Of a stretch of 64,000 nucleotides of DNA, positions 31,213-62,712 are shown piece by piece. The translations under genes and the position numbers were made by a program. The stretch covers positions 62,001 to 126,000 of the forward strand of contig NZ_CP024313.1 of NCBI RefSeq assembly GCF_002944315.1. Direction: 5' to 3'. The number at the start of each line of letters is the position of its first letter. Within the stretch, counting starts at the first letter, position 1. This DNA is from Rhizobium sp. NXC24 (lineage in GTDB: Bacteria; Pseudomonadota; Alphaproteobacteria; Rhizobiales; Rhizobiaceae). The notes beneath the pieces are model-generated. The model did not search any database. It was not told the origin of the DNA and worked only from the letters and a program-made list of their open reading frames with translations.

Positions 31213-32508
31213 ATGATAAAAAGAACGGAAAAACCATCAATTGCGAGAAACACGAACACTCACGTCGGATCTGGCAAGCGCCTCATCGGGCCGGCCGAGG
31301 GGGACCAGAGCGACAGTAAAGGATTCTGGCCAGCTCATCCTTTAATCGCGGCGCGGACGCTAGGGATTGCAAATCGAGGACGCTTGCTGCAGGCCCTCTA
31401 CGATATGGGTCCGTCCAGCAGGGTCGAGCTTGCGCGCGTCACCGGTGCCAGCCGCGCAACCATCGGCGGCATCGTCCAACCACTGATCAATCAGCGTATT
31501 CTTGAAGAAGGCGACCTGGTACCCCCCGATCGCACCGGCGGAAAACCTGCTACCAAGCTCTGGTTCTCGAAAGGGGCCAAGCCGATCTGCGCAGTTCGGC
31601 TGATGCACGACCGTGTCCACACATGCCTGGTCTCTATGGGGGGCGAGATCTATGCTCAACACGACGTGGATTTGGCGAAAGATCTGACGGCTGCTGCCGA
31701 TGCATTTCAGATCGTCAGTGCTTGCATTGAGAAGTCAATCGCATCTGCTCACCAACAGGTTTTAGGCATCGGCGTGGCAGTTGCCGGAGAGTTCAACCCG
31801 CAAACGGGCTCGATCGTAGCTATGGATCTTGCGCCGTATCTTCATGGCTTTCCGGCAAAAGCAGAGTTGGAAAAGCGTTTCGGAGTTCCGGCTTGTGTCG
31901 ACCAAGATGCTAGAGCCTTGCTTGTTGGCGATCGTTGGTTCGGACGGGGACGTGGACAGAGAAATTTCGCGGTCGTACACATCGGTCAGTCGTTGGACGC
32001 GGCGCTCTATGTCGATGGACATCCTTATAGGGCCGCAGGAGGAAAACACTGCCAAATCGGCCATACCATCGTGCAACTCAATGGGCAAATGTGCAGATGC
32101 GGACGACGCGGATGTTGGGAAACGATCGCCACACTGGGATGGTTACGAGGCGAAGCAAAGGCCAGGGGCCTGCCGCAGGCTCGCTCGTTGGATGCGAGCC
32201 GTTTGGTGTGGCTCGCCGAAACGGGCGCTGAAGGGGCAAAAGAACTGCTTGAAGACTATGCGTCCAATATTTCCGTCGGGTTGGCGAACCTTCAACAGCT
32301 GATGGCACCCAGCTGCATCACTTTGCATGGGGACATCGTGCACGGCGGAAAATTGATGTTAGATCTTATTCGAGAGAGCGTTGGGCAATTGATGTTCAAT
32401 CCCGGGGATACCGAGATCGCCCTTGCCCTCGGCGATCGGGAAGATGTGGCCGGCCTGCGCGGGGCGGCGGGTCTCGTTCTCTGCGAATTGCTGAATTTCA
32501 TAATCTGA
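31213..32508 (+). CDS. ROK family transcriptional regulator (second copy)
   Basis: 431 residues from ATG 31213; the frame is open from 31099, so the start is uncertain. The winged HTH RVELARVTGASRATIGGIVQPLI is followed by a ROK domain with the zinc cluster CRCGRRGCWE. It aligns from end to end with the ROK repressor at 19580-20923, including GRGQRNFAVVHIG against GRGQQNFAAIYTG and LVGDRWFG in both. It is divergent from the DegT-HAD-GNAT cassette, which makes that cassette its likely target, just as the first copy faces the sugar importer. Two related ROK proteins sensing related ligands would link uptake to amino-sugar metabolism. Confidence 0.86.
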   Translation: MIKRTEKPSIARNTNTHVGSGKRLIGPAEGDQSDSKGFWPAHPLIAARTLGIANRGRLLQALYDMGPSSRVELARVTGASRATIGGIVQPLINQRILEEGDLVPPDRTGGKPATKLWFSKGAKPICAVRLMHDRVHTCLVSMGGEIYAQHDVDLAKDLTAAADAFQIVSACIEKSIASAHQQVLGIGVAVAGEFNPQTGSIVAMDLAPYLHGFPAKAELEKRFGVPACVDQDARALLVGDRWFGRGRGQRNFAVVHIGQSLDAALYVDGHPYRAAGGKHCQIGHTIVQLNGQMCRCGRRGCWETIATLGWLRGEAKARGLPQARSLDASRLVWLAETGAEGAKELLEDYASNISVGLANLQQLMAPSCITLHGDIVHGGKLMLDLIRESVGQLMFNPGDTEIALALGDREDVAGLRGAAGLVLCELLNFII

Positions 32509-32744
32509 GCAGAGAACGGCCACAGTCGTTAGAGACGCCGTCCGGTCAAATTGCAATCATCCGCATTTCAATAAACTGCCATCGTTCTCGAACGTCGAAT
32601 TGCAACCAAATGCAAGTGGATTATTGGGTTCCAGTACCACCTGAAGCTGTTGGCGGGTGGGAGTAGTGTACTGGATGTGCTCGATCCAGCCAGGCAACTG
32701 CACGGATCATGCAAGCCCAGCCTGGTGCGTACCGGGGGTGAGGC

Positions 32745-33041
32745 TCAAGAAAAAAACGAGACGAGAACGGACAACCAGATCAAGGCGACCCCCAGCAACA
32801 GCGCTCGCCTGGCGGCTACAATCTTTTCCTGGCCTTCCTCCGCGACAGGGGTCGTTACAATCCAAGGAACTGAGCCAAGCGCCGCAAAACCGATGAGCGC
32901 CAGGACCACCACGATCAGATCGGACCGATCCCAGCCGCCCGGCTCATACACTCCCCAATAGCCGAGGAACGCCATTCCCACAGCGAACATGGTGGCGGAG
33001 GCAGAGCAAAGTCCGGGAACAGAACCTGATGGTGCACGCAT
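32745..33041 (-). CDS. Small membrane protein of unknown function
   Basis: 98 residues from the ATG preceded by AGAGGA. There are three hydrophobic helices: around 12-32 (MFAVGMAFLGYWGVY), 42-62 (LIVVVLALIGFAALGSVPWIV) and 78-95 (LLLGVALIWLSVLVSFF). No family is recognised. It is a single gene between the second ROK regulator and the SyrB-like tandem genes. The frame is open a further 23 codons upstream, without an RBS. Confidence 0.55.
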   Translation of the reverse strand: MRAPSGSVPGLCSASATMFAVGMAFLGYWGVYEPGGWDRSDLIVVVLALIGFAALGSVPWIVTTPVAEEGQEKIVAARRALLLGVALIWLSVLVSFFS

Positions 33042-33424
33042 TTCGTATCCTCTTTGTCGGTCGAACCAAGGGCGATTTCTATGACGGTGGGCTTTGGACA
33101 TGTCTGTCAAGAATTGGGTGCCAAGTGAAGCCGTGATCTATTGCAAATGAATTAGGAAATTCCGAACATTGAACGAAGCGACCGATCGCAGAAGCTGGTA
33201 GGGGGCTCCCTTTCGTGGCAGAGTGTGATCGCCAACTCGTCGTGAACAGACGGTTCGACCTTGCAAGCTCGGCATTTTTTCATTCCATCGTCCGTAAGCC
33301 GCTGCTCGCCCTTTAGCCACGAGTTTTGACAGGTGCTGTCCAAAAAGTGAGCCACAAAAGCACCAATATTGACTCTGTCTTTCACTCAGCCGAAAAGGAC
33401 TCCTGCCGACAGAGGGAGATACTC
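33042..33424. other. Intergenic, nothing recognised
   Basis: About 380 bases between divergent genes. Short minus-strand frames here contain scattered Cys residues but have no RBS or family match. It presumably holds the promoter of the SyrB-like tandem array. Confidence 0.35.
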
Positions 33425-33862
33425 ATGGCTGACGAGAACAATACTGGCACAATCACTGAGATGGCAGACACGAATATACCGGCGAAAACGCCAGCGCCAA
33501 AAAAACAGCGCGCTCCGCGACGTCCGAAAGCAGCTGCCGAGGCAGCGGGTACCACGCAGGTTGCGAAACCTGCGAAGGCGCCGCGAGGTCGCAGGAAGCG
33601 TAGCGAAGAAGCCGCAAGCACAAAGTCCGAGCCTGTCGAAATGCAGGTCGCTGACATCTCCGTCAAGGAACCCATAAAGAACACTGCAGCCAAGAGGCCG
33701 GCACAGCAGTCCGTGCAAAAAGTTACGACGGCCGCTCCGGCAAGGGACGAGATGGCGGATCTTATTCAGCTGGAAGAAGAGAATAAGAGGCTCCGTAAAC
33801 TCTTGGCAGAGAAATTGCGTGGGGAAAATGCCGATCTGCGCAAGCGGCTCGGGCTAGATTGA
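33425..33862 (+). CDS. SyrB-like protein, tandem gene 1
   Basis: 145 residues from ATG 33425 (RBS GAGGGAGA). The first ~105 residues are low-complexity, rich in Ala, Lys, Pro and Arg (PKKQRAPRRPK, APRGRRKRSEE) and probably disordered and nucleic-acid friendly. Residues about 108-145 form a charged coiled coil: DLIQLEEENKRLRKLLAEKL, then ENADLRKRLGLD. Both ends resemble SyrB of Sinorhizobium meliloti, a regulator that antagonises SyrM, but the central helix-turn-helix I would expect of SyrB is absent. It may oligomerise with the two following proteins through the shared tail. Regulator status is inferred. Confidence 0.65.
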   Translation: MADENNTGTITEMADTNIPAKTPAPKKQRAPRRPKAAAEAAGTTQVAKPAKAPRGRRKRSEEAASTKSEPVEMQVADISVKEPIKNTAAKRPAQQSVQKVTTAAPARDEMADLIQLEEENKRLRKLLAEKLRGENADLRKRLGLD

Positions 33863-33930
33863 GCGCCGATCAACAGCGGGATGGTGGCGAAATCAACCTG
33901 AGCTATCCTTCTCGGCAGAAGATGCGTTCG

Positions 33931-33953
33931 CCGGGCTCGCCTTCCGAGCCCGG
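33931..33953 (+). terminator. Perfect 9-bp hairpin after tandem gene 1
   Basis: CCGGGCTCG and CGAGCCCGG with the 5-base loop CCTTC, between the first and second SyrB-like genes. It is GC-rich but lacks a T-run, so it could be a terminator, an RNA-stability element or a protein site. Confidence 0.6.
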
Positions 33954-34004
33954 TGTCAAGCTGCGGCGCCCTTATGGATACGGACTGGTCGAGGTTGAAG
34001 CACT

Positions 34005-34592
34005 ATGAAATTACCCTGGAAATTCCTTGCTCGATTAACTTCGCGGCGACAGTCCGCACCCGAAAGTTCGATCGGGCATGGTGTCCATACCGACGCAAGT
34101 CAAAGCGAAACACAAGATGTACCGCAGCTTGCGTTAAACCCACCAGAGCCCTCCAGTGGCTCCGAGGCCGATGAAAGTCGATCTATTGAGATCATAGGGA
34201 CTGATCCAAAAGAATTCGAAGGTGAGGTCGAAATTGAAGGTGCGGCACCGGTTGAAGGTGACGAGGTTCAAGAACTGTCGCCCCCGGAGGTCGGGAAGCC
34301 GAGCGCTGAAGCTTCTGCGGTGCCGCTTGAAAGCGGTACGCGCTATAAGGCTCCAGGCATACCGCGGACGAAAAAGCCAACACATGCGAAAAGAGTTCAC
34401 ATTGACGTGACTGCGCAGAACGCAGCTGTTGCAAGCAATACTCAAAATGAGACATCCTCATCGTCTGAGGAATGCTTTTTCGAAGAGGTGACAAGCCTGG
34501 ACGAGGAAATCACGCAACTGCGGATTCAATTAGCTCAAAAGCTGCTTTTGCAGAATGATCAGCTTAAAAAAATGCTTGAGCGATTTGACTGA
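34005..34592 (+). CDS. Acidic SyrB-tail protein, tandem gene 2
   Basis: 195 residues. A short basic start (MKLPWKFLARLTSRRQS) leads into a long acidic, Ser/Glu/Pro-rich, probably disordered region. The last ~35 residues form the tail EITQLRIQLAQKL followed by QNDQLKKMLERFD, the same heptad layout as in the genes before and after. No known domain is present. It is opposite in charge to the basic neighbour encoded upstream, so the tails could bring a basic and an acidic partner together. The stop codon overlaps the next hairpin. Function unknown. Confidence 0.6.
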   Translation: MKLPWKFLARLTSRRQSAPESSIGHGVHTDASQSETQDVPQLALNPPEPSSGSEADESRSIEIIGTDPKEFEGEVEIEGAAPVEGDEVQELSPPEVGKPSAEASAVPLESGTRYKAPGIPRTKKPTHAKRVHIDVTAQNAAVASNTQNETSSSSEECFFEEVTSLDEEITQLRIQLAQKLLLQNDQLKKMLERFD

Positions 34593-34613
34593 TCGTAAGT
34601 CTTCCTTACGATC
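34591..34613 (+). terminator. Perfect 9-bp hairpin at the end of tandem gene 2
   Basis: GATCGTAAG and CTTACGATC with loop TCTTC, starting inside the stop codon of the second SyrB-tail gene. The loop is almost the same as that of the hairpin at 33931-33953. The third gene starts 16 bases later. Confidence 0.6.
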
Positions 34614-34628
34614 TAAGATGGGACATAT

Positions 34629-35207
34629 ATGAAAACACAGCAGCGAAAATTCGTTGTCGAGCTCAAATCGGCCCGGCGCAGGCCAACGATCCGGCCAGCT
34701 TCTATCTGGGGGGATACCGACCTCAAGACGCTGGCCCGCGAGGCGGAGGCAGACGCACCACATCTGTTCGAGCCTAAGACCGTCTCAGATGTTCCGAAGC
34801 GAGAAAGCGAGCTATGGTCGGATCCAAAACCAGAGACTCACCTCAACGACGACGTTAAAACCCGCGATGATAAACGGATGTCGACGCCCTCTCTCGAAAT
34901 GGAACCAACGCGTCCGTCTCAGCAGGACAATGGCCCGGTCTTCACCTCTGTTTCACAATCGAAAGAGGGGTCTTCCAGGCGGTCTCCAATGAACATAAGG
35001 CGTCGACGTGAAGCGAATATCGATGATAATGCGGACGCAACGACGAGCATGGTCAGCGCCCAATCAAACGGCATCCACATCGATATCTCAGACGAGGAGC
35101 TAATCGCGCTTGAAGAAGAAAACCGGCGCCTCAAGGCTTTGCTGGTGAAACATCTTCGTCAGGAAAATATGCAAATTCGACAGATGCTCGCGAGATTCAG
35201 CGATTAG
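34629..35207 (+). CDS. SyrB-tail protein, tandem gene 3
   Basis: 192 residues. The N-terminus (MKTQQRKFVVELKSARRRP, then SIWGDTDLKTLAREAE) is basic and seems more ordered than in the other two. A Ser/Thr/Asp-rich middle follows. The C-terminus is again the coiled-coil tail ELIALEEENRRLKALLVKHL, then QENMQIRQMLARFSD. This tail is the closest to that of gene 1. I recognise no domain in the N-terminal part. The three consecutive genes probably arose by duplication with replacement or rapid drift of their N-terminal parts. Confidence 0.6.
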   Translation: MKTQQRKFVVELKSARRRPTIRPASIWGDTDLKTLAREAEADAPHLFEPKTVSDVPKRESELWSDPKPETHLNDDVKTRDDKRMSTPSLEMEPTRPSQQDNGPVFTSVSQSKEGSSRRSPMNIRRRREANIDDNADATTSMVSAQSNGIHIDISDEELIALEEENRRLKALLVKHLRQENMQIRQMLARFSD

Positions 35208-35330
35208 CGCGAGATCTTATGAACCAATCATGTTTGCGTGGCAGCGCTTAGATCTCTTCATGGCCACAGGAGGGAGTACGTGGTTTACCGCGGAAGTCCG
35301 CATGAAAGCTGCTCACCAAGCTCGTTGCTT

Positions 35331-35358
35331 GCTTCACGCACGCATTCTTGCGTGAAGC
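35331..35358. terminator. 10-bp hairpin between the tandem genes and the hyp operon
   Basis: GCTTCACGCA and TGCGTGAAGC with an 8-base loop, between the convergent ends of tandem gene 3 and hypE. It is placed to act as a bidirectional terminator for the hup-hyp operon, although there is no strong T-run. Confidence 0.6.
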
Positions 35359-35375
35359 GATATGCACAGCCGTGC

Positions 35376-36422
35376 TCAGCAGATTCGCGGCAACTGTTCG
35401 CCCCATAACCAATCGACAATACGACTGCCACCAAACGACGTCTCCATCTGGACGAAGCAATGGTCGTCAGCCTCGGCATGGCCGATCAAAGCGGCCTGCG
35501 CACCCAACGGATGCGCGCGCATGACGGCGAGCAGCGCATCCGCAAACTCTGGCGCCACTAATACGACGAGCTTGCCCTCGTTGGCGACGTTGAGCGGGTC
35601 GAGGCCGAGCAATTCGCACGCCGCGGCTACTTCCGGTTTGATCGGAATGGCCTCCTCGTCGATACGGAGGCCGACATTTGAGGCATTGGCGATTTCGTTG
35701 AGTACCGCCGCAAGTCCACCTCGCGTTGGATCTCGCATCAGCCTGATTGACGATCCGGCGACCTCGACCATTGCCGCTACTAACCCGTGCAGCGCAGCGC
35801 AATCCGATATGATGTCCGTATCGAAGTCAAGGTTCTCGCGCTTCGACATCACAGCGACGCCGTGATCGCCTATCGAACCCGAGATGATCACCGCATCGCC
35901 TGGCCGTGCGGCATCGGAGCGTAGGTCGAGGCCAGCTTGAATGATGCCGATGCCGGAGGTAGATATGAACACGCCGTCGGCCTTGCCGCGCTCAACCACT
36001 TTCGTATCGCCAGTGATGATCGGTACACCTGCCTCGCGTGAGGCCGCTCCCATCGCGTCAGCAATTCGATTAAGCTCTGCGAGCGGAAACCCCTCTTCAA
36101 TGATGAAACCTGCCGAAAGATAGAGCGGGCATGCGCCCCCCATGGCAATGTCGTTAATCGTCCCATGCACCGCAAGCGAGCCAATATTGCCCCCCGGGAA
36201 GAACAGCGGCGAGACAACATAGCTGTCGGTGGTCATCACCATGCGCCCTGCCGAAACGGCAAATGCCGACTGATCGTTGGCAGCCCTGAGCCAGTCATTG
36301 TCAAAGGCCTTGTGAAAGATGCCCTTGACCAGCTGGTCCGTGGCGCACCCCCCCGCCCCATGCGAGAGATCAATGCGTCCGTTCCTGAGGTCGAGCCTCG
36401 ACCTTTTGGCTTTCATGGTCAT
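35376..36422 (-). CDS. hypE: HypE, hydrogenase cyanide-ligand synthesis protein
   Basis: 348 residues from ATG 36422, overlapping the hypD stop as ATGA. It is a PurM-like ATPase with LSHGAGGCATDQLV at the N-terminus and DPTRGGLAAVLNEIA in the middle. It ends in PRIC, whose C-terminal cysteine is carbamoylated by HypF and dehydrated to thiocyanate, the source of CN for the NiFe site. It is the last gene of the hup-hyp operon; a hypX/hoxX gene, present after hypE in some rhizobia, is not seen here. Confidence 0.97.
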   Translation of the reverse strand: MTMKAKRSRLDLRNGRIDLSHGAGGCATDQLVKGIFHKAFDNDWLRAANDQSAFAVSAGRMVMTTDSYVVSPLFFPGGNIGSLAVHGTINDIAMGGACPLYLSAGFIIEEGFPLAELNRIADAMGAASREAGVPIITGDTKVVERGKADGVFISTSGIGIIQAGLDLRSDAARPGDAVIISGSIGDHGVAVMSKRENLDFDTDIISDCAALHGLVAAMVEVAGSSIRLMRDPTRGGLAAVLNEIANASNVGLRIDEEAIPIKPEVAAACELLGLDPLNVANEGKLVVLVAPEFADALLAVMRAHPLGAQAALIGHAEADDHCFVQMETSFGGSRIVDWLWGEQLPRIC

Positions 36423-37576
36423 GCGGTCGTCCTGCTGCTTTCGTCCGCCTTTCCCGGCCCGCGGAAACGGCCGTAGATCCAATGCGCGGCGCAGGCGCCT
36501 TCCGACGACACCATGCAGGAGCCCATCGGCGAATCTGGCGTGCAGACCTTATCAAACAGCTTGCAGTCGGAAGGCTTCTTCACGCCGCGCAGGATGGCAC
36601 CGCATTCGCAGGCCGGATTGTCTTGCGCCGCCGGCGTCACCATGTCGAAACGTTTCTCGGCGTCATATTTGGCATATTTAGGCCTGAGGCCAAGCGCACT
36701 ATGGGGCATTGCGCCGAGCCCCCGCCATTCGAAGCTATCCCGCAATTCGAAGACATTTGCGACCTCGCGCTTCGCCTTTTCGCTGCCAAGGTTGGTCACG
36801 GCGCGGATATACTGGTTCTCCACCTTGTGGATGCCGTCATTGACCTGGCGGACCAGCATCAGGATTGAATAGATGACATCAAGCGGCTCGAAGCCTGCCA
36901 CCACGATCGGCGTGTCAAATTCTTCGGCAAGAACTTCAAATGCCTGCGTACCAATGACCGTGCTGACATGTGCAGGGCCGAGCAATCCGTCGATCTTGAT
37001 ATTGCCCAGCGTGCGGGCATCGGAGTTTTCGAGGATACTCTGGATCGCAGCCGGTGTTAGCACGTGGTTTGAGAAGATCGAAAAATTTGGAAGGTCCTTT
37101 GCGATCGCGAACCGCAGCGCCAGCGCCGTCGGCGGTGTCGTGGTCTCGAAACCGATAGCGAAGAAGACGACTTGCCTGTTCGGTTCGGCTTCGGCGATGC
37201 TTAGCGAATCGAGTGTCGAATAGACCATGCGAATATCGGCGCCGGCCGATCTGGCCTTGAGCAGACTCGAGCCGTTTGAGCATGGCACACGCATCAAGTC
37301 GCCATAGGTGCAAAGCGTGATTTCTGGGCGCATGGCAAGCGCGATCGCCGCGTCGATGCGGCCGATCGGCAGCACACAGACTGGACAGCCCGGTCCGTGA
37401 ATCATCTGCACATTGGCCGGCAGCAGGTCTTCAAGGCCATAGCGCGCAATCGCATAGGTATGGCCGCCGCAGAATTCCATGAAATGATAGCTGCGCGCCG
37501 GATCTACCGCCGCCGCTATTTGGCGAGCAATATCTTTAGCGAGCTTGGCATCGCGGTATTCGTCTATATATTTCAC
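36419..37576 (-). CDS. hypD: HypD, Fe(CN)2CO assembly iron-sulfur protein
   Basis: 385 residues. The HypD motifs FCGGHTYAI (about residue 38), GPGCPVCVLP (about 67) and GFETTTPPTA (about 150) are present, as are the C-terminal 4Fe-4S cysteines (CECGAILRG, CKLFDKVC). HypD forms a scaffold with HypC on which Fe(CN)2CO is built. The start overlaps the hypC stop as ATGA. It is collinear and intact. Confidence 0.97.
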   Translation of the reverse strand: MKYIDEYRDAKLAKDIARQIAAAVDPARSYHFMEFCGGHTYAIARYGLEDLLPANVQMIHGPGCPVCVLPIGRIDAAIALAMRPEITLCTYGDLMRVPCSNGSSLLKARSAGADIRMVYSTLDSLSIAEAEPNRQVVFFAIGFETTTPPTALALRFAIAKDLPNFSIFSNHVLTPAAIQSILENSDARTLGNIKIDGLLGPAHVSTVIGTQAFEVLAEEFDTPIVVAGFEPLDVIYSILMLVRQVNDGIHKVENQYIRAVTNLGSEKAKREVANVFELRDSFEWRGLGAMPHSALGLRPKYAKYDAEKRFDMVTPAAQDNPACECGAILRGVKKPSDCKLFDKVCTPDSPMGSCMVSSEGACAAHWIYGRFRGPGKADESSRTTA

Positions 37577-37800
37577 GCCGGACCTCCGAGGGTAGCTTCG
37601 CGGATCAAGGCAAGCGTCCTTTCCGCTTCTTCCGTGTCGAGCTTTGCAAGCGCGTAGCCTACGTGGAGGATGAGATAGTCACCGGGCGTGACATCCTCGA
37701 CGAGTGCAATCGATATGACCTTCAAGACGCCGTCGAGCGTTACCTTGGCCATATTGTCCGGCAGCAGTTCCATCACCTGGACCGGTAGGGCTAGGCACAT
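37573..37800 (-). CDS. hypC: HypC, hydrogenase maturation chaperone
   Basis: 75 residues starting MCLALPVQV; the N-terminal Cys2 exposed after Met removal carries the Fe(CN)2CO unit with HypD. An in-frame upstream ATG would bury this Cys and is rejected. The DYLILHVGYAL segment is typical. HypC hands the iron group to the HupL precursor. Its start overlaps the end of hypF by ten bases. A second HypC-family protein, HupF, is encoded at 43984-44277. Confidence 0.97.
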   Translation of the reverse strand: MCLALPVQVMELLPDNMAKVTLDGVLKVISIALVEDVTPGDYLILHVGYALAKLDTEEAERTLALIREATLGGPA

Positions 37801-40064
37801 GGCCGGTGCTCCCACATCTGGGCGCAGTCGTGTTTGATGACGTGCCGTGCATAGGCGGCCTGACCGAGAGCTATACCCCCATCATTGGGCGGAACCTGGC
37901 GCGGCAGGTAGGGCTCAAGGCCATGGTCGCGCAAGGCGCTGGATAGACCTTCGGCCAGAATGCGGTTCGTGATGCAGCCGCCGCCGAGCATGATCGTGCG
38001 CGTGCCAGCCTGCGATGCACCAAGGGCGGCCCAATCCGCGAGGCCGCTGATCAGCGTGCCATGGAATAGGTCTGCGGCCTGGCGGCGGCCAAGCCGCCGC
38101 TCCGCCAGATGGACGATGAGGGGTCGAAAATCGAGCAGGCCATCGGCGAGACTGTAGCCCCCGGCAAGACATTGGGGATTATCGGCGAGTGCTTCGAGCT
38201 CCATTGCTGCCTGCCCCTCGTAGCTCTGGACGAGGCGGACGCCAGTTATCGCCGCCACTGCATCGAAAAGCCGCCCCAAGCTGGACGTATCGGCTGATTG
38301 CAAGCCGCGGGCAAACATTGCATCAAGTTGCGCGACGCCAGGATGTTCGGGCCAAAGCGTGGCCGAAAGGTCGCGGCGGCCGGCGGCCTGAAGAGCGGCA
38401 ATTCCCATGCGCCAGGGCTCCCGCGCGACTCGATCTGCGCCCGGCGCCGGCAAGGGCAGAAGCGAAGAGAGCCGCTGCCAGCGAGGACCGTCGACGACCA
38501 GCATTTCGCCTCCCCAACTACTGCCATCGACGCCATAGCCATGGCCGTCGAGTGCAAGTCCGAGGACCAAACCGCCGGCCTGATGTTCCGCCGCCACTGC
38601 AGCGACGTGAGCAAGGTGATGTTGCACCGGCAGAAGTGGCAGATCCAAATGTTCCGCGATCCGCGCTGAACGGAAATCCGGATGCAGATCGCAGGCGGCA
38701 AATTCGGGCCTGACATCAAGGATAGAGCAGAGATGCTCGAGAGCTTCCCGCTGGAAACTGATCGCTTTGACATTGTCGAGACCGCCGATGTGCTGCGACA
38801 GGAACGCCTCGCGGCCCCTTGTCACGCAGATGGTGTTTTTGAGGTCCGCGCCGGTGGCAATCACGCATGGGCCGTCCTCGCCAAGATCGACCGGCTCAGG
38901 CACAAAACCCCGGGCGCGCCTCAAAAAGCTCGGCGCGCCGTCAATCACCTGCATGACGGAATCGTCAGCGCGAATGGCAATGTCACGGTCATGTGTGACG
39001 ATCAGGTCGGCAATCCCGGCAAGCCGATGCATGGCATCATCATTATCTGATACGAGCGGTTCACCCTCCGGATTGGCGCTGGTCGCAATCAGAGCGGCGG
39101 GAGCGCCGGCCGCTCCTACTGCAAACGCAGCAAACAACAGGTGGTGCACCGGCGCATGGGCGAGCAGCAGACCGATCCTTCTGAGGCCGGGAGCGATGAG
39201 CTTGGAAAGGTGATCACGCGCCTCGATAAGGACAATCGGGGCGGCGGTCGAGGCAAGCAAATCCTCTTGCGCCCGCGAGGGCCTAGCAAGTATTCGGGCT
39301 GTCTCAATGTCCGGCACCATGATCGCGAACGGCTTCTCGTCGCGCAGCTTGCGTCGTCGAAGACGATCAATTGCGGTATCATTGCGCGCGTCGCAGAAGA
39401 GCTGGAAGCCGCCGATACCCTTGATCGCAATAATCTGGCCATTCATGAGCCGCGCGGAGACCTCCGCGATAGGATGGCTAAGCTGTGGGCCGCAAACCGG
39501 GCAGGCTAGGGGCTCGGTATGGAACCGCCGGCTCTCGGGGTTGGCATAGTCTGCGCCGCAGGCGCGGCACATCCGGAACGCCGCCATCGAGGTCCGGCCG
39601 CGATCATAGGGGAGCGCGCGGGTGATGGTGAAGCGCGGGCCACAATGAGTGCAGTTGACAAAAGGATAACCAAAAAAGCGGTTGTCCGGATCATTCAGTT
39701 CGCGCAGACATTCGGCGCAAGTCGCAGCATCGGCGCCAATGCGCGTTGCGCCGCGGCCGCCGACGCTTTCGAGGATTTCGAACATTTCGTCGCCGGCCGG
39801 CTCCAGTTCCAGCTTGTCGACGGAATCGATACGGGCAAGCGGCGGCGCCTCCTTGCAGACGCGTTTCGCAAAGCAGTCGACAGCGACGCCCTCGACCTCG
39901 ATCAGCACGCCGGCGCTGTCGTTGAGCACGAAGCCGGTAAGCTGCATCATCCTCGCAAGCCTATAGACGAACGGCCGGAATCCCACCCCTTGCACGGCAC
40001 CGCGCACACACACTCGCAACCGCCGGACACGATCTTCCGCCATGGATGCCAAGGCGCTCACCAT
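37791..40064 (-). CDS. hypF: HypF, carbamoyltransferase for hydrogenase CN ligands
   Basis: 757 residues from ATG 40064 (an ATG seven codons later is possible; the frame is open further upstream inside hypB). Domains in order: acylphosphatase-like (RGAVQGVGFRPFVYRLA, about 20), two zinc-finger pairs (CAECLREL, CTHCGPR; CRACGADY, CPVCGP, about 110-190), YrdC-like (about 200-380) and the Kae1-like carbamoyltransferase (VQHHLAHVAAVAAEH, about 480; LGGGCITN near the end). It uses carbamoyl phosphate and ATP to load the HypE cysteine. Length and motifs are complete. Confidence 0.96.
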   Translation of the reverse strand: MVSALASMAEDRVRRLRVCVRGAVQGVGFRPFVYRLARMMQLTGFVLNDSAGVLIEVEGVAVDCFAKRVCKEAPPLARIDSVDKLELEPAGDEMFEILESVGGRGATRIGADAATCAECLRELNDPDNRFFGYPFVNCTHCGPRFTITRALPYDRGRTSMAAFRMCRACGADYANPESRRFHTEPLACPVCGPQLSHPIAEVSARLMNGQIIAIKGIGGFQLFCDARNDTAIDRLRRRKLRDEKPFAIMVPDIETARILARPSRAQEDLLASTAAPIVLIEARDHLSKLIAPGLRRIGLLLAHAPVHHLLFAAFAVGAAGAPAALIATSANPEGEPLVSDNDDAMHRLAGIADLIVTHDRDIAIRADDSVMQVIDGAPSFLRRARGFVPEPVDLGEDGPCVIATGADLKNTICVTRGREAFLSQHIGGLDNVKAISFQREALEHLCSILDVRPEFAACDLHPDFRSARIAEHLDLPLLPVQHHLAHVAAVAAEHQAGGLVLGLALDGHGYGVDGSSWGGEMLVVDGPRWQRLSSLLPLPAPGADRVAREPWRMGIAALQAAGRRDLSATLWPEHPGVAQLDAMFARGLQSADTSSLGRLFDAVAAITGVRLVQSYEGQAAMELEALADNPQCLAGGYSLADGLLDFRPLIVHLAERRLGRRQAADLFHGTLISGLADWAALGASQAGTRTIMLGGGCITNRILAEGLSSALRDHGLEPYLPRQVPPNDGGIALGQAAYARHVIKHDCAQMWEHRPCA

Positions 40065-40071
40065 CGTCAGA

Positions 40072-40938
40072 CTACTGCGAAGCTTTCGCGATCCTGGCCG
40101 TCTCAGCCTCCAGCCAGAAATAGAACGCTTCCATGCCTTCGCCGCTGCACGCAGAAACCGTGAGAGTGCGAAGGTGCGGATTGACGCGTAGCGCATTAGC
40201 GATGCAGCGCCCGACATCGAAGTCGAGATGCGGCAGGAGGTCGGACTTGTTGAGAATCATCAGATCGGCGGCCGCGAACATGTCGGGATATTTGAGCGGC
40301 TTGTCCTCGCCTTCAGTAACCGAAAGCACCACGACCTTGTGGGCTTCGCCAAGATCGAAAGCGGAGGGACAGACAAGATTGCCGACATTTTCGATGAACA
40401 GGACCGAACCGGGCTCGGGCGCAAGGTCGTCCACCGCGTGGCCGACCGTGTGGGCGTCGAGGTGACAGCCCTTGCCGGTGTTGATCTGGATTGCAGGAAC
40501 GCCGGTCTTGCGGATGCGTGCGGCATCGTTGGAGGTCTGCTGGTCGCCTTCAATCACGCTGATCGACATCCGGTCCTTGAGGTCGCGAATGGCGCGCACC
40601 AGAAAGCTGGTCTTTCCCGACCCCGGGCTTGAGACGAAATTCAGCGCAAAGATCCTGTCGCGGCCGAACCGAGCCCGGTTTTCGGCAGCATAGGCATTGT
40701 TTTTGGAGAGGATATCCTTTTCGATCTGGACGATGCGCTCCGGGTTCATGCCCGGAACATGCACGCCGGCAATGCGCTGATGATGTTGGAGTGCACCGTG
40801 TTCCGCGGAGTGTCGATCATGATGATGTCCATAATCGTGCTGGTGACCGCGATGATGATCATGCTCGCCGCCATGCGCGCCTGTCTTGCTCTTGCCATCT
40901 TCCAACGTTGCCATCTCGCAGCCGCATACCGTGCACAT
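40072..40938 (-). CDS. hypB: HypB, nickel-binding GTPase
   Basis: 288 residues. The N-terminus starts MCTVCGCE (high-affinity metal motif) and continues into a histidine-rich stretch (about 24-50, with HDHH, GHHHDRH and QHH) for nickel storage, as in other rhizobial HypB. The P-loop is SSPGSGKTS (about 107), and the G3 and NKSD motifs follow. It drives Ni insertion with HypA. The start shares one base with the hypA stop (TGATG). No hupE nickel permease gene is found in this operon, so this His-rich store may matter more than usual. Confidence 0.97.
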
Positions 40939-48724: not shown

Positions 48725-50668
48725 TCAAACCGCTTCAGCCGATGCCTTTGACTGTGAGCCGACGTTCCCCATCGTGTGGTAGTCACGGAGGTCTGCCTCC
48801 TTCGTCAGGTTCCAATAGTCGATAAGGCGCCAAGGGCTGTTTGTTACGATCCGCCCCCGGGCATTGCGGAAATAGGTGGACATGCCGGGATGGCTCCAGA
48901 TCATCTTCTGGTGCATTTCTTGGATCGTTCGATTGTAGCGTTGACAGACGTCTTGCCGGCATTCCACCTCGGAGAGCTTCTTTTTTCCCATCTGGCGCAG
49001 AACGCTCAGCACGTAATCCAGCTGGCTTTCAATGGTGAAGATAAAGTTCCCGCGATGACCGAGGGCTGTATTGGGGCCGTAAAGCATGAAGAAGTTCGGG
49101 AAACCCGGCACGACGGTACCAAGATACGCCTGACAGTCGTCATCGTTCCAAGCTTCACGTACTGTCACGCCATCGCGTCCGAATATCTGAACTGGAAGCA
49201 AGAAGCGCGTGATATCGTAGCCGGAGGCGACGATGAGAACATCTGCCTCATGGCTGTCGCCATTTATCGCTCGGATCGACTTGCCTTCAACCTGTGCAGC
49301 AGCGCTGTCCACCAGACTGACTTGCGGCTTCAGAAGGGTGCTGTACCAGCCATTGTCCAGGAGCATTCGCTTGCCGAACGGCGGGTAGGGGGGAATGACC
49401 TTGGCCAGTAGGTCGGGCCGCCCGGCCAGCTGTTCTTCGATATATCGTGTACACGTCTCGCGGTGGCCGTCGTTCATGGCATTCACGGAGCGATCGGGAT
49501 GCGGCCACGCCGGATCCTTCTGCAGGGACTCGTGCACTTGGGTATCAAAAATCCAACTGAGCCGGAGCCTATAGAGCCATTCGTAGTGCGGTAGCGCGCG
49601 GAGCAAGAACTGCATCGACTCGGGGACCGACATAAGAAATTTTGGAAAGGGTGCCGCCCATTGGCGAGATCGTTGGAAGATTGTCAAGGCACTCACCCGA
49701 TCGGCGATGGCCGGGACAATCTGCATCGCCGATGCGCCGTTTCCGATCACAGCCACGCGTTTGCCGTCGAGCGTAACCCCGGGGTCCCAATTGGAGGTGT
49801 GCACCAACGGTCCGTCGAAGTCACGCAGGCCGGGAATGTTTGGCCATTTCGGCGTCGTAAATCCGCCCACGGCTGAAATGACCACATTGGTTACAAGGGT
49901 TTCTTCCCGCCCGTCTGGCAAGCGCAATCGAGAATGCCAAGTCCGGCTTTCCTCGTCATAACGAGCAAACAGGCATTCCGTGCCGTAGCGGATTGAGCTT
50001 TCAATCCCGAACTCGCAGGCGACCCGGTTGAGGTATTCATCGATTTCCTGCTGCAACGGGAAGAACTTGCTCCAGTCGCCACTGGCAAATGTGAAGGAGT
50101 ATAGATGTCCGGGCGTGTCGACCCCGCAGCCAGGGTAGCGATGTGAATGCCAGACCCCGCCTGTGCGGTCTTGCTTTTCGATCTGGATGTAAGAAACGCC
50201 CAGTTGTCGCAGCCGAACTGCGGCTGCGATCCCAGACATGCCGGCTCCGATAACAAGTATGCGAAAATTGTCCGGCAAACACACCGGATCAGGAACCGCG
50301 CCTGAATATCTCCGGAGCTTATGGATCATCATGTCAGCATATTCCGGCGGAATAGGCTCAGCCTCTGACATGGAGAGCATGCGGATCAACTCTTCTGCCG
50401 ATAAGTCTGCTCTTGCGATGGGAACGCCTTGGCGCCAAGCCATGATGGCGCTCAGCGCTGCATCGCGAATCTCCGCCTGCAATTCGATTGCCAGACCACC
50501 TGAGTCGTTGTCGTCCCAGCCGCTTTTGGCAGGAATAAACGGTGGACTAAGCCAATATTCTCGTCCTGTGAACTGATAAAGCAGGAGCAACAAGGTTGGG
50601 ATATTGGCCGAAGGGAGTGCTTCGGCGATACGCTGGCGAAACTGGTCGATGTCTTCTAAGTGAGCCAT
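48725..50668 (-). CDS. Baeyer-Villiger-type flavin monooxygenase
   Basis: 647 residues. A non-conserved N-terminal extension of about 130 residues precedes the FAD-binding ILVIGAGMSGIAAAVRL (about 136). The BVMO-type fingerprint FDGPLVHTSNWD (about 285) and the NADPH-binding VAVIGNGASAMQ follow. The long N-terminal extension recalls 4-hydroxyacetophenone monooxygenase. Such enzymes insert an oxygen next to a ketone using NADPH and O2. The gene ends 92 bases before hupS, on the same strand. The substrate is unknown; the nearby EgtD-like methyltransferase and P450-ferredoxin pair suggest a shared pathway, which is inference. Confidence 0.85.
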   Translation of the reverse strand: MAHLEDIDQFRQRIAEALPSANIPTLLLLLYQFTGREYWLSPPFIPAKSGWDDNDSGGLAIELQAEIRDAALSAIMAWRQGVPIARADLSAEELIRMLSMSEAEPIPPEYADMMIHKLRRYSGAVPDPVCLPDNFRILVIGAGMSGIAAAVRLRQLGVSYIQIEKQDRTGGVWHSHRYPGCGVDTPGHLYSFTFASGDWSKFFPLQQEIDEYLNRVACEFGIESSIRYGTECLFARYDEESRTWHSRLRLPDGREETLVTNVVISAVGGFTTPKWPNIPGLRDFDGPLVHTSNWDPGVTLDGKRVAVIGNGASAMQIVPAIADRVSALTIFQRSRQWAAPFPKFLMSVPESMQFLLRALPHYEWLYRLRLSWIFDTQVHESLQKDPAWPHPDRSVNAMNDGHRETCTRYIEEQLAGRPDLLAKVIPPYPPFGKRMLLDNGWYSTLLKPQVSLVDSAAAQVEGKSIRAINGDSHEADVLIVASGYDITRFLLPVQIFGRDGVTVREAWNDDDCQAYLGTVVPGFPNFFMLYGPNTALGHRGNFIFTIESQLDYVLSVLRQMGKKKLSEVECRQDVCQRYNRTIQEMHQKMIWSHPGMSTYFRNARGRIVTNSPWRLIDYWNLTKEADLRDYHTMGNVGSQSKASAEAV

Positions 50669-52654: not shown

Positions 52655-53134
52655 GCCGGAACATCGTTTTAAAAACAATGAAATGATACTCACGCACCTT
52701 TGACGGTGTCCGGCATTGTCGGAAACACCGCAACGTCGCTACGTTTGCTCTCCACCGTTATGCCAGTTTCTTCCGCGATCACGCTGCGTCGATTTTGTTA
52801 GCTCCCCGACAAAGGCCTTTTCAGCTTGCTCGGATCAAACAGCCGAAGAGCGCCGGGAAGATTGTTTTTCGGCCGACCAACGGAACTGGCATGAATTTTG
52901 AAGTCTCTATACGAGGCGATCGGCGCGTCCGGCACGTTTGAGTGGCCTCGTCATCGGGGGAGTGTCGGGTCGCAATCGACCGAACGACCCGATAGCGACT
53001 GTCACGAGCCGGCGTTGCCGAATATCGGCAATCTTGCCCTCTTGGCTTTTGACGGGCGGGTGAACCGCGACACTGAGACTTCAGCTGCCAAAGAACAACA
53101 CGGCGCAAGGCCGCCGCAAAGGAGATATCAACTC

Positions 53135-54349
53135 GTGAGTCACCCAATTCCAGATCATGTTCCGCGCGAAATGGTGAGTGGCTTCAGCTTGTTCACATCA
53201 CCCGGCATGCAACGCATCTCCAATGGCGATCCCCATGCAGCCGCCGCTCGTGTTCACGCCGGGCCTCCAATCTTTTATTCACTGCACAATACGCGTGATG
53301 GTCGTGGCACTTGGCTCATCACCCGGGCCAAAGACCAACGCAAAGTGCTGCAGGACCTCGATACTTTTTCCAGCAACCGCAGCCTTTTCGCCTCCGCGCT
53401 CGATGACGACTGGCCGTTGATCCCACTTGAGCTCGATCCACCGGCCCACGGCCTTTTTCGCTCCCTGCTTAATCCCCTGTTTTCGCCAAAACGAGTGATG
53501 GCGCTGGAACCCTCCATCCGTATGCGAGCAATCACCATTGTCGAAAACATCTCCGCATCGGGCAGGAGCTGCGAGGTGATGAAAGACTTTGCCATTCCGT
53601 TCACAGTTGGCGTCATTCTTCAGTTTTTGGGAATATCGGCTGAACGGCTCGACATATTTGTCGGCTGGGCGAAAGGCTTGCTTCACGGAGACAAGGTCCA
53701 ACGATCGGCAGCGGCTCGAGCTATTCTGGAGTTTATCGATGAACTTGCGGCCTTGCGCCGCAAAGAACCCGCCGACGATTTCATGACCTTCGTTGTGCAG
53801 GCACAGATTGATAACCGTCCGCTGACCGACAAAGAAGTCCGCGGCATCGGCGTATTATTGTTCGTCGCGGGACTCCATACGGCCGCAGCCGCGATAGGCT
53901 TTGACTTGGCCCATCTGGCGCGCAACCCAAAAGACCAGAGTTTATTGCGCAGTCAACCGGAACGGATTGTGCTCGCAACCGAAGAATTGTTGCGGGCCTA
54001 TTCGACCGTACAAATGATTCGGGTGGCAACAAAAGATATCGTCTTCGAAGGCACGCCGATTCGCAAAGGGGATTATGTTTGCTGCGCCACGATGATTGCC
54101 AATCGTGATCCGGCGGAGTTCGAGGATCCCAATATGATTGACCTGGCACGCGAGGACAACTGCCACACCGCGTTCGCCGTAGGCCCCCATCGTTGTCTTG
54201 GCTCGCACCTTGCCCGGCGGGAGATCATCATCGGGTTGGAGGAATGGCTGTCTCATATCCCTCATTTCCGAATCAAGGAAGGTACCGCCCCAATAACCCA
54301 TGGCGGCCATGTGTTCGGGATCGAGAATCTCGTCCTGGACTGGTCATAA
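53135..54349 (+). CDS. Cytochrome P450
   Basis: 404 residues from a GTG at 53135, chosen because AAGGAGA lies at the right distance and the length is then typical; the frame is open from 52898, which would add 79 non-P450 residues. I-helix LFVAGLHTAAAAIG has the AGxxT oxygen-activation motif, EELLR is the K-helix ExxR, and FAVGPHRCLG carries the heme ligand Cys354. It is a soluble class I P450, so it needs a ferredoxin; one is encoded 34 bases downstream. The substrate is unknown. P450 genes are common on rhizobial symbiotic plasmids, for example in gibberellin clusters, but those partners are absent here. Confidence 0.92.
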   Translation: MSHPIPDHVPREMVSGFSLFTSPGMQRISNGDPHAAAARVHAGPPIFYSLHNTRDGRGTWLITRAKDQRKVLQDLDTFSSNRSLFASALDDDWPLIPLELDPPAHGLFRSLLNPLFSPKRVMALEPSIRMRAITIVENISASGRSCEVMKDFAIPFTVGVILQFLGISAERLDIFVGWAKGLLHGDKVQRSAAARAILEFIDELAALRRKEPADDFMTFVVQAQIDNRPLTDKEVRGIGVLLFVAGLHTAAAAIGFDLAHLARNPKDQSLLRSQPERIVLATEELLRAYSTVQMIRVATKDIVFEGTPIRKGDYVCCATMIANRDPAEFEDPNMIDLAREDNCHTAFAVGPHRCLGSHLARREIIIGLEEWLSHIPHFRIKEGTAPITHGGHVFGIENLVLDWS

Positions 54350-61677: not shown

Positions 61678-62712
61678 ATGTCGCATAGCAGCAACCCACA
61701 TTTGACATTTAAGCGTGGTGGATCGTCATTTGATGGCATGATCGAAACACTCGGTACTGCTTTTGGCGAATATAAAGCCGCGCTTGTCAGCCCTGTAGAT
61801 GATTTCCAATGGAGGCTGGATTTTTCGAGCTGCGACTATGCCACTGTGATCAAAGGTTTTCATCAACACGAGTTTGAGTTTCAGATTCAGCCTACCATCA
61901 ACGCCGTGCAGCATTTGTCGATTGTGCTACCGCGTAGCGGAGGCATGGGAGTAACCTACGGCTCACGTGAAGCCACCGCTCGACACGGTAAGTTGCTCCT
62001 ATATAACAATCTTGAGCCAGAGAGCGTCGTGATGTACGGCCGAGCAAACCTCATCGACGAACTTTTGCTCGACTGGAATTTGATTTTGCAGACGCTCGAT
62101 CAAACCTTCGAGACGCCATTCAGTGGATCATTGGACCTTCTGCCGGAATTGGAAATGTCGACGTCGGCCGGTCAGATGATCGGCTCTCTTGCGGAGACCG
62201 TCATTCGTGGGTTGCGCGATCCTTCGGTTCGATCCCCAATCGCAATGGCACACGTCACGCAAGCTTTGGCCGACCTGATCGTGCGCCTTGTCCCGCACAA
62301 GCTTTCCCACCTGCTCGACAGGAAGCCCTACATGATAGCGCCCAGACATGTCCGGCGCGCGATTGAATTTATGGAAGCCAATATCAGCCAGCCGATCAGA
62401 ATGCCGATGGTCGCGAAGGCTGCTGGGGTGTCGACCCGCGCATTGCAACTCGGCTTCCGTGCTTTCCGGGAGACCACGCCGGCCGCTTATTTGGCGATGC
62501 TTCGTTTGCGGGCGGCGCGGGTGGATTTACTTGATCCGGCGAACGGGCACACAACGAGAGAAATTTGCTTGAAATGGGGATTTCTTCACTTCGGACGGTT
62601 CTCGGCGATGTACAAGGCAAACTACGGTGAAAGTCCTTCTCATACGAGAAAGCGTATCAGAGGTATGCAGCCCCGCTCTCGCAGGCAACAACAAACTGTT
62701 GGGGGCAATTGA
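61678..62712 (+). CDS. AraC family transcriptional regulator (copy 2)
   Basis: 344 residues, start at ATG 61678. It aligns along its full length with copy 1 (3349-4365): FDGMIETLG, IVLPRSGGMGVTYG, LLDRKPYMIAPRHVRRAIEFM and the two C-terminal HTH units (MPMVAKAAGVSTRALQ; ICLKWGFLHFGRFS). The N-terminal ligand domain is the more diverged part. Its position between nodD copy c and nodA copy b repeats the linkage of copy 1 with the other nod cluster, hinting at a role in nodulation-gene control. The ligand is unknown. Confidence 0.86.
   Translation: MSHSSNPHLTFKRGGSSFDGMIETLGTAFGEYKAALVSPVDDFQWRLDFSSCDYATVIKGFHQHEFEFQIQPTINAVQHLSIVLPRSGGMGVTYGSREATARHGKLLLYNNLEPESVVMYGRANLIDELLLDWNLILQTLDQTFETPFSGSLDLLPELEMSTSAGQMIGSLAETVIRGLRDPSVRSPIAMAHVTQALADLIVRLVPHKLSHLLDRKPYMIAPRHVRRAIEFMEANISQPIRMPMVAKAAGVSTRALQLGFRAFRETTPAAYLAMLRLRAARVDLLDPANGHTTREICLKWGFLHFGRFSAMYKANYGESPSHTRKRIRGMQPRSRRQQQTVGGN

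Follow-up and report, generated by a model that had tools for sequence, protein, structure and literature searches.

Three tandem genes in a stretch of Rhizobium sp. NXC24 DNA (the window: 64,000 nucleotides, positions 62,001 to 126,000 of contig NZ_CP024313.1, which is contig C3 of a 7.3-Mb genome) encode proteins with different N-terminal regions, or heads, and a common C-terminal tail. We call these genes g1, g2 and g3. Our preferred reading, to which we give a probability of roughly 55 per cent, is that they form a portable, operon-like cassette for a regulator complex that is assembled through its tails, is descended from OrfA of the IS3 insertion elements, and has g1 as its DNA-binding subunit. 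Because the tail is common to the three proteins and the set recurs in many relatives, the three probably form one DNA-binding complex.

A shared tail in three tandem genes

The original prediction, made from the letters of the window, was of three consecutive open reading frames (ORFs) with a single type of tail, and this held. The last ~32 residues of g1, g2 and g3 align without gaps, and each of three tail profiles built solely from other loci (n = 44 for g1, 37 for g2, 47 for g3) ranks the three genes first to third among the window's 962 stop-to-stop ORFs. E-values for these nine matches range from 8.9e-20 to 0.018, and the best unrelated window ORF reaches 0.71. Run against the strain's own genome, the g3 profile matched g2 with an E-value of 1.0e-11 and g1 with one of 4.8e-9. 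The g1 profile matched g3 (7.3e-6), and the g2 profile recovered g2 alone. Given these rankings and whole-genome matches, the common tail is beyond chance. Outside the cassette, the g1 profile matches one place in the genome at 0.049. The g3 profile also matches a tail-like stretch elsewhere (G000:C1:2921050-2921154, L074) at 9.7e-4. Tails are conserved in relatives beyond this strain, a point on which the idea had been staked beforehand.

Over 32 residues, the window tails are identical at 0.53 of positions for g1 and g3, 0.41 for g1 and g2, and 0.34 for g2 and g3. By comparison, g1 tails against shuffled g3 tails from 25 loci gave a mean identity of 0.13 and a 99.9th percentile of 0.344. The motif used to excise the tails fixes up to three columns, which inflates the identities somewhat, and the g2-g3 value alone would not be decisive. 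Tails resemble each other to the same degree within a cassette as between cassettes (0.414/0.413, 0.481/0.480 and 0.420/0.421), which rules out homogenisation inside a cassette and indicates that the three tails are old paralogues.

Among 24 g1, 30 g2 and 34 g3 chosen rows, leucines nearly always occupy tail positions 5, 12, 16, 20, 27 and 31, and asparagine occupies position 24 in 88/88. The core spacing of 3-4-4-4 repeats over 15 residues, making two 15-residue repeats. Other positions depend on the gene: position 9 is asparagine in all g1 (24/24) and g3 (34/34) rows and isoleucine (29) or valine (1) in the 30 g2 rows, while position 23 is glutamate in 24/24 g1, glutamine in 30/30 g2 and mixed in g3. 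On these alignments, each of the three tails has its own identity. A wider set from genomic loci (45 g1, 38 g2, 49 g3) shows the same pattern; its excision motif partly fixes columns 23, 24 and 27, and it leaves out rows lacking the motif and the near-identical loci L003-L005 and L035.

In AlphaFold monomer models, the g3 tail is a lone helix (residues 155-190) whose block has a predicted local distance difference test score (pLDDT) of 87-98, and the tail of one g1 with a helix-turn-helix (HTH) is likewise a lone helix (122-154, pLDDT 79-96). Downstream of one g1-g2-g3 set lies a 56-residue ORF (L056:8194-8361) made up mostly of a tail of the g2 type, in effect an orphan zipper.

Recurrence and arrangement of the cassette

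When the g3 alignment was used to scan genomes, 72 pattern matches yielded 65 loci. In support of the original prediction, the tandem arrangement recurs beyond this strain: 33 of the 65 have g1-g2-g3 on one strand, 13 have g1(HTH)-g3, seven have g3 alone and four have a fused g3head-g1 followed by g2. The remaining eight arrangements were each seen once, and include a fusion without g2 (L061), g3-g1-g2 (L051), g2-g1(HTH)-g3 (L025) and two convergent sets (L059). The last of these, in Shinella (L059:9304-11683), has g1(HTH)-g3 on the plus strand and an HTH-less g1-g2 on the minus strand. Since L002-L005 have identical coordinates and scores and L034/L035 nearly so, the 33 g1-g2-g3 loci represent fewer independent cases. 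On four annotated Sinorhizobium plasmids, in which we checked the gene identities, the order is g2, g1(HTH), g3 with gaps.

Across 247 genomes of the family, at least 31 match g3, at least 15 match g2 and at least 42 match g1 (E ≤ 1e-10). The counts are minimum figures, since not every first-look candidate in a genome was scored. As tails cross-match, we counted by hand the matches that include the N-terminus. Such a g3 match is present in 28 of the 247 genomes, and 27 of these (all but G178) also match g1, the g1 match of fused cases being to the same ORF as that of g3. A g2 match from position 1 occurs in nine genomes, all within the 28. The strain's own genome has one cassette, and R. lusitanum P1-7 has four kinds (L002, L008, L026, L057).

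At L057, L061, L062, L064 and L065 the g3 N-terminal module is in frame with a complete g1, and L063 is frameshifted. A hand count in the 247 genomes found ten places, in nine genomes, where a g3-profile match over 2-188 lies in an ORF of 223-375 amino acids (aa) and overlaps a g1 match. The fused g3head-g1 frame may be translated throughout; at L057, L062 and L065 it still contains the promoter-like element of g1 and the g1 ATG. As a g3 head can come with a zipper of its own or be joined covalently to g1, g3 and g1 probably act together. Hetero-oligomerisation of the three proteins is favoured indirectly by this fusion, by their co-location and by the shuffling of gene order without separation.

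Flanks, replicons and neighbouring genes

The DNA of 118 locus pairs could be aligned over the cassette. Of these, 85 share less than 100 nt in each flank and 20 share more than 1000 nt in both, flanks being two 3-kb stretches taken from 600 nt upstream and 200 nt downstream, with redundant loci and those cut by contig ends included. In eight cassette pairs whose edges were read by eye, DNA similarity begins ~100-550 nt before g1 and ends close to the stop codon of g3, or beyond it in some pairs. Because flanking genes mostly differ between loci, we regard the cassette as a portable unit of ~2 kb. We rejected a mobile element with terminal repeats after finding no obvious inverted repeats by eye at the edges of those eight pairs, with no systematic repeat search.

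Of 72,556 plasmid records, 250 match g3 and 181 of these are predicted to be conjugative; the matching plasmids are from Sinorhizobium, Rhizobium, Ensifer, Agrobacterium, Aminobacter, Neorhizobium, Roseibium and Pararhizobium. The cassettes at L027 and L036 are on a replicon titled chromosome 2. No g1 match was found in 50,697 phage records (E ≤ 0.01), and none of the 30 viral stretches that match the g3 pattern encodes a relative.

Clustering of neighbours over the 65 loci found no gene family common to all, and the largest cluster, present at 25 loci, varies from locus to locus in its distance and its strand. In the window the cassette is followed by convergent hyp hydrogenase maturation genes (35376-40938, minus strand; hypE, hypD and others), named by synteny with CIAT 899. 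Close relatives have the cassette between a ROK-family gene and these hyp genes, which adjoin it in L002-L007, CIAT 899 and CB3060; relatives of the hyp genes are on its other side in S. meliloti 4H41 (L047). On pNGR234a (L082:2893-7105), nodD1 is followed downstream by a single HTH regulator gene and then, ~1.1 kb from nodD1, by a g1(HTH)-g3 pair; a MucR-family gene is further on. A MucR neighbour is not a rule, as a MucR-like ORF is present at 3/65 genomic loci; three annotated plasmid regions also have one. The suggestion that the set tunes nod or syr regulation found little support here, given the hyp context in close relatives, the varying contexts elsewhere, and a syr link that consists of the SyrB name. 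On pNGR234a, however, one relative does lie near nodD1.

Two further genes of the window had partial matches under the cutoff: a flavin monooxygenase-like protein (48725-50668, minus strand) and a cytochrome P450-like protein (52898-54349, plus strand). Coordinates of the cassette features are given in Table 1.

Table 1. Cassette features, with positions in the window
Feature	Position	Strand	Description or evidence
Promoter-like element TTGACTC-N11-CAG-N2-GAAAA	33369..33396	+	Starts 56 nt before the ATG of g1
g1	33425..33862	+	SyrB-like, basic head, 145 aa
Basic R-A-P-R motif, g1 residues 26-35	33500..33529	+	Motif counts across g1 heads
AT-hook-like motif PRGRRKR, g1 residues 53-59	33581..33601	+	Motif counts across g1 heads
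g1 shared coiled-coil tail, residues 112-145	33758..33859	+	Tail alignments and tail profiles
Hairpin between g1 and g2	33929..33955	+	11-pair stem (G-U allowed)
g2	34005..34592	+	Acidic head, 195 aa
Conserved g2 N-terminal motif MKxPWKFLAxLxSRR	34005..34049	+	Family alignment
g2 shared coiled-coil tail, residues 161-195	34485..34589	+	Ile at core position 9; tail alignments and profiles
g3	34629..35207	+	192 aa
Conserved g3 N-terminal module, QRxFVVExKSxRRR then SIWGDTDLKALAREAE	34629..34772	+	Family alignment; dN/dS 0-0.15 (four comparisons)
g3 shared coiled-coil tail, residues 157-192	35097..35204	+	AlphaFold, tail alignments and tail profiles

Heads and DNA-binding motifs

The heads had been described as unrelated and probably disordered. 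They are indeed unlike each other, and the middle of the g3 model is mostly below a pLDDT of 50, yet each N-terminus is conserved within its own family (in the chosen rows used for the tails), beginning with MADENNTG in g1. P4 and W5 of g2 are present in 38/38 rows, although the motif used to place the starts of these rows itself includes P-W. A membrane anchor at the g2 N-terminus was dropped as a candidate, the hydrophobic moment being above shuffles in 0/38; the periodicity of the hydrophobic moment was uninformative. Opposite head charges, also described, are found in the window (net +9 for g1, -10 for g2, +1 for g3). Among the loci, all 45 g1 heads are positive, and 27 of the 37 g2 heads are negative, seven positive and three neutral; as ten of the 37 are not negative, opposite charge is a tendency only.

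The original prediction saw no HTH in gene 1, and we found none in window g1, which has no HTH_Tnp_1 match up to an E-value of 1. A sister g1 lineage does carry HTH_Tnp_1, the IS3-OrfA type, between head and tail. All three HTH-type g1s tested match it at 40.5-42.6 bits against a cutoff of 24.1, with a match that extends from the HTH over the first half of the tail. When the profile is limited to the HTH, it splits 61 g1-type ORFs into 16 at ≥73.6 bits and 45 at ≤8.0 bits. On a tree of 42 g3 rows labelled by whether the partner has an HTH, the label needs one change. The heads differ in their basic motifs as well: R[GA]PR is present in 29/35 HTH-less heads versus 2/11 HTH-type heads (shuffle means 0.6 and 0.1), and RGR[KRP] in 25/35 (shuffle mean 0.3) versus 0/11. 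Window g1 has an RGR core with basic flanks, which is an AT-hook by a weak four-residue criterion and has no Pfam match. AT-hook-like RGR motifs may stand in for the HTH in most HTH-less g1 heads.

None of the three proteins has a Pfam or NCBIfam match that reaches the family cutoff, nor, at E ≤ 1, a match in these databases to silencer families of the H-NS/Lsr2/MucR type. We also found no match to a DDE or other catalytic domain in g1, g2 or g3, including HTH-type g1. Searches of solved-structure sequences returned nothing for the g3 profile (E ≤ 1) or the HTH-type g1 profile (E ≤ 5). A single HTH-type g1 sequence had five weak matches there (E from 0.011 to 0.51), none of which we accepted as kin.

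Relatives and selection

Protein searches at E ≤ 1e-3 found 859 relatives of g1, 191 of g2 and 133 of g3. The best 120 were listed per gene, and as the tail is common these lists may overlap. One of the g2 relatives, P0205 of Rhizobium jaguaris (114 aa), is named cytochrome P450; its C-terminal part matches g2 at 72% identity over 38% of g2, and it is apparently a truncated or disrupted g2 under the wrong name.

We calculated dN/dS by the Nei-Gojobori method (custom script) against CB3060, L002, L007 and L010. In the N-terminal 48 residues the values are 0-0.22 for g1, 0.09-0.40 for g2 and 0-0.15 for g3, and in the tail 0.07-0.44, 0.14-0.40 and 0.07-0.12 (one g3 value being undefined through saturation). 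The middles give 0.58-2.32, 0.69-1.01 and 0.44-1.33. Judged from these ratios, both ends of all three proteins are under purifying selection and the linkers are hardly constrained. For whole genes, g1 has 0.24-0.85, the highest value coming from the CB3060 pair, which has few changes. The codon-level constraint expected of genes 2 and 3 is seen in their whole-gene values of 0.40-0.50 and 0.25-0.53 (four comparisons each), with the middles alone approaching or exceeding 1 in several.

Control elements

The promoter-like element lies 51-58 nt before the g1 ATG in 45 non-redundant rows, and 49 of the 50 g1 loci for which we could assign a start have a -35-like core. This core is TTGAC in 44 of the 45 rows and TTGTC in one, and the element is common to the HTH, non-HTH and fused types of g1. 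Its exact motif has one copy in the strain's own genome. Searching for a regulon with two mismatches gave three matches versus one for a reversed control, and we saw no regulon.

The intergenic spacing in the 26 loci measured is 90-162 nt between g1 and g2 and 21-46 nt between g2 and g3. A hairpin in the g1-g2 interval reaches p ≤ 0.05 in 21/24 cassettes (mononucleotide shuffles). Its position varies, and it is near the g1 stop in Ensifer-type and some other cassettes. For covariation we used 14 of the 24 cassettes, chosen for a hairpin in the Rhizobium-type place. In this set, which has 13 distinct rows, 93.2% of cells pair and 5/9 pairs are changed on both sides; 0/500 shuffles reach the covariation score and 3/500 reach the number of pairs changed on both sides. 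Rfam had no match at E ≤ 1 in 32500-35600. Together, the spacing, the promoter-like element and the hairpin suggest unequal expression of g1 versus g2-g3.

Proposed mechanism and alternatives

In the tail-assembled regulator that we favour, the ~32-residue helices would bring g1, g2 and g3 together in a mixed coiled coil. The g1 subunit would bind DNA through HTH_Tnp_1 in one lineage and through AT-hook-like basic motifs in the lineage of the window, and g2 and g3 would attach two further conserved N-terminal modules, bringing other contacts, to the same zipper. The promoter and hairpin would probably set the unequal amounts of g1 and g2/g3. Such a complex likely acts in transcriptional or chromatin-type regulation, possibly by repression as reported for SyrB on syrM. 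Descent from IS3 OrfA is inferred from the match of HTH plus zipper; an OrfA half would have lost its catalytic partner, and the zipper would have been copied into two more genes. A further-reaching version, which we hold tentatively, is that this is an undescribed kind of regulator: an OrfA-derived zipper spread over three co-transferred genes, forming an obligate hetero-oligomer with an interchangeable DNA-binding head (HTH or AT-hook), on whose hub the other heads would plug in separate activities, several copies per cell being perhaps mutually insulated.

Several other explanations deserve weighing. A nucleoid-associated silencer like H-NS, Lsr2 or MucR, in which the g1 RGR motif binds AT-rich DNA, the zipper bridges or polymerises, and g2 is an acidic antagonist, would account for the RGR-type motifs, the basic g1 heads, the mostly acidic g2 heads and the helical tail, and known xenogeneic silencers are described as using positively charged residues to bind AT-rich minor grooves (PMC8857273). 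We consider it unlikely, as sister g1s carry an HTH and lack the RGR motif (0/11), ten g2 heads are positive or neutral, and the patchy spread (g1 in 42/247 genomes, a lower bound) is unlike that of a housekeeping silencer. It is less probable still that the cassette is a remnant or non-autonomous insertion element, selfish DNA with g1 as a leftover transposase fragment. HTH-type g1s are named transposase in many records and match HTH_Tnp_1, and 85 of the 118 alignable pairs share no flank; however, the three proteins have no catalytic domain match, the eight pairs of edges have no inverted repeats noticed by eye, the genome has one cassette only, and both ends of the genes are under purifying selection.

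We give little credence to a plasmid-maintenance accessory similar to KfrA-KfrC that acts on segregation and not on expression. The 250 plasmid records, 181 of them predicted conjugative, are in its favour, and KfrA of plasmid RA3 is itself an alpha-helical DNA-binding protein in complex with KfrC (PMC7783346). This explanation fits poorly with the cassettes on the replicon titled chromosome 2 and with the want of a common neighbour family across loci. Chance or compositional similarity among three unrelated low-complexity proteins ending in charged coiled coils is very improbable: coiled coils do converge easily, and the g2 profile missed g1 and g3 in the strain's own genome, but the three profiles rank g1, g2 and g3 exclusively first among the window ORFs, the tails have gene-specific, near-invariant core residues, and the clustering is conserved across loci. 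As far as sequence can, this refutes it.

This analysis brings together, in one conserved, portable cassette, hundreds of proteins whose records call them 'SyrB-like', 'transposase' or 'hypothetical'. It also suggests a route from a transposase accessory protein to a multi-subunit regulator, questions the 'transposase' and DNA transposition annotation carried by many records, and gives defined subunits on rhizobial symbiotic and accessory plasmids, where the control of acquired genes is an open question.

Comparison with known systems

The core spacing of the tails, 3-4-4-4, is also that of the VASP tetramerisation domain, which is reportedly a coiled coil built on a 15-residue repeat. This resemblance is in the spacing only, VASP being eukaryotic, and we claim no homology. 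KfrA has a long coiled coil, unlike the short tail shared here; the likeness to KfrA-KfrC is that of a plasmid-encoded coiled-coil DNA-binding protein with a helical plasmid partner. With H-NS, Lsr2 and MucR the cassette shares basic motifs of the minor-groove type and, probably, oligomerisation, and it differs in that g1-g3 have no match to such a family.

OrfA and OrfAB of IS3 elements pair via a common zipper. These elements are described as having HTH, zipper and DDE parts and the products OrfA, OrfB and OrfAB (PMC6211511). Sister g1s have the same architecture of HTH plus zipper, but they have an extra MADE head, no DDE partner was found, and the zipper is present in two other genes. NCBI labels HTH-type SyrB-like proteins 'transposase' (L079:5289-5744, L077:5286-5741, L082:5001-5447 and relatives), several with the GO term DNA transposition, and JGI places 'putative transposase' on HTH-less relatives. 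The HTH is not the cause of every such label, as the HTH motif is present in 0/19 of the JGI-labelled relatives checked.

The resemblance of gene 1 to SyrB, which the original prediction had pointed out, is borne out by the names of its relatives, which include SyrB-like regulator (P0004, 94%; P0006, 88%; P0007, 73%) and SyrB2 regulator. Relatives on S. meliloti 1021 pSymA and pNGR234a have the same kind of N-terminus and tail; the one on pSymA is an HTH-type protein (L080:11632-12087) in an unannotated record and may or may not be the SyrB that was studied. A review (PMC9957244) describes negative regulation of syrM by SyrB in S. meliloti and, for S. fredii, names SyrB as a target of MucR. 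The open PMC literature on SyrB and related terms, as far as its text was accessible and with subscription journals mostly outside its coverage, mentions SyrB without g2 and g3 partners and holds no description of g2, g3 or the cassette. A second difference is that window g1 lacks the HTH which the relatives in S. meliloti and NGR234 have retained between head and tail. The cassette thus appears to be a regulator family known by name, here in an unrecognised multi-gene form.

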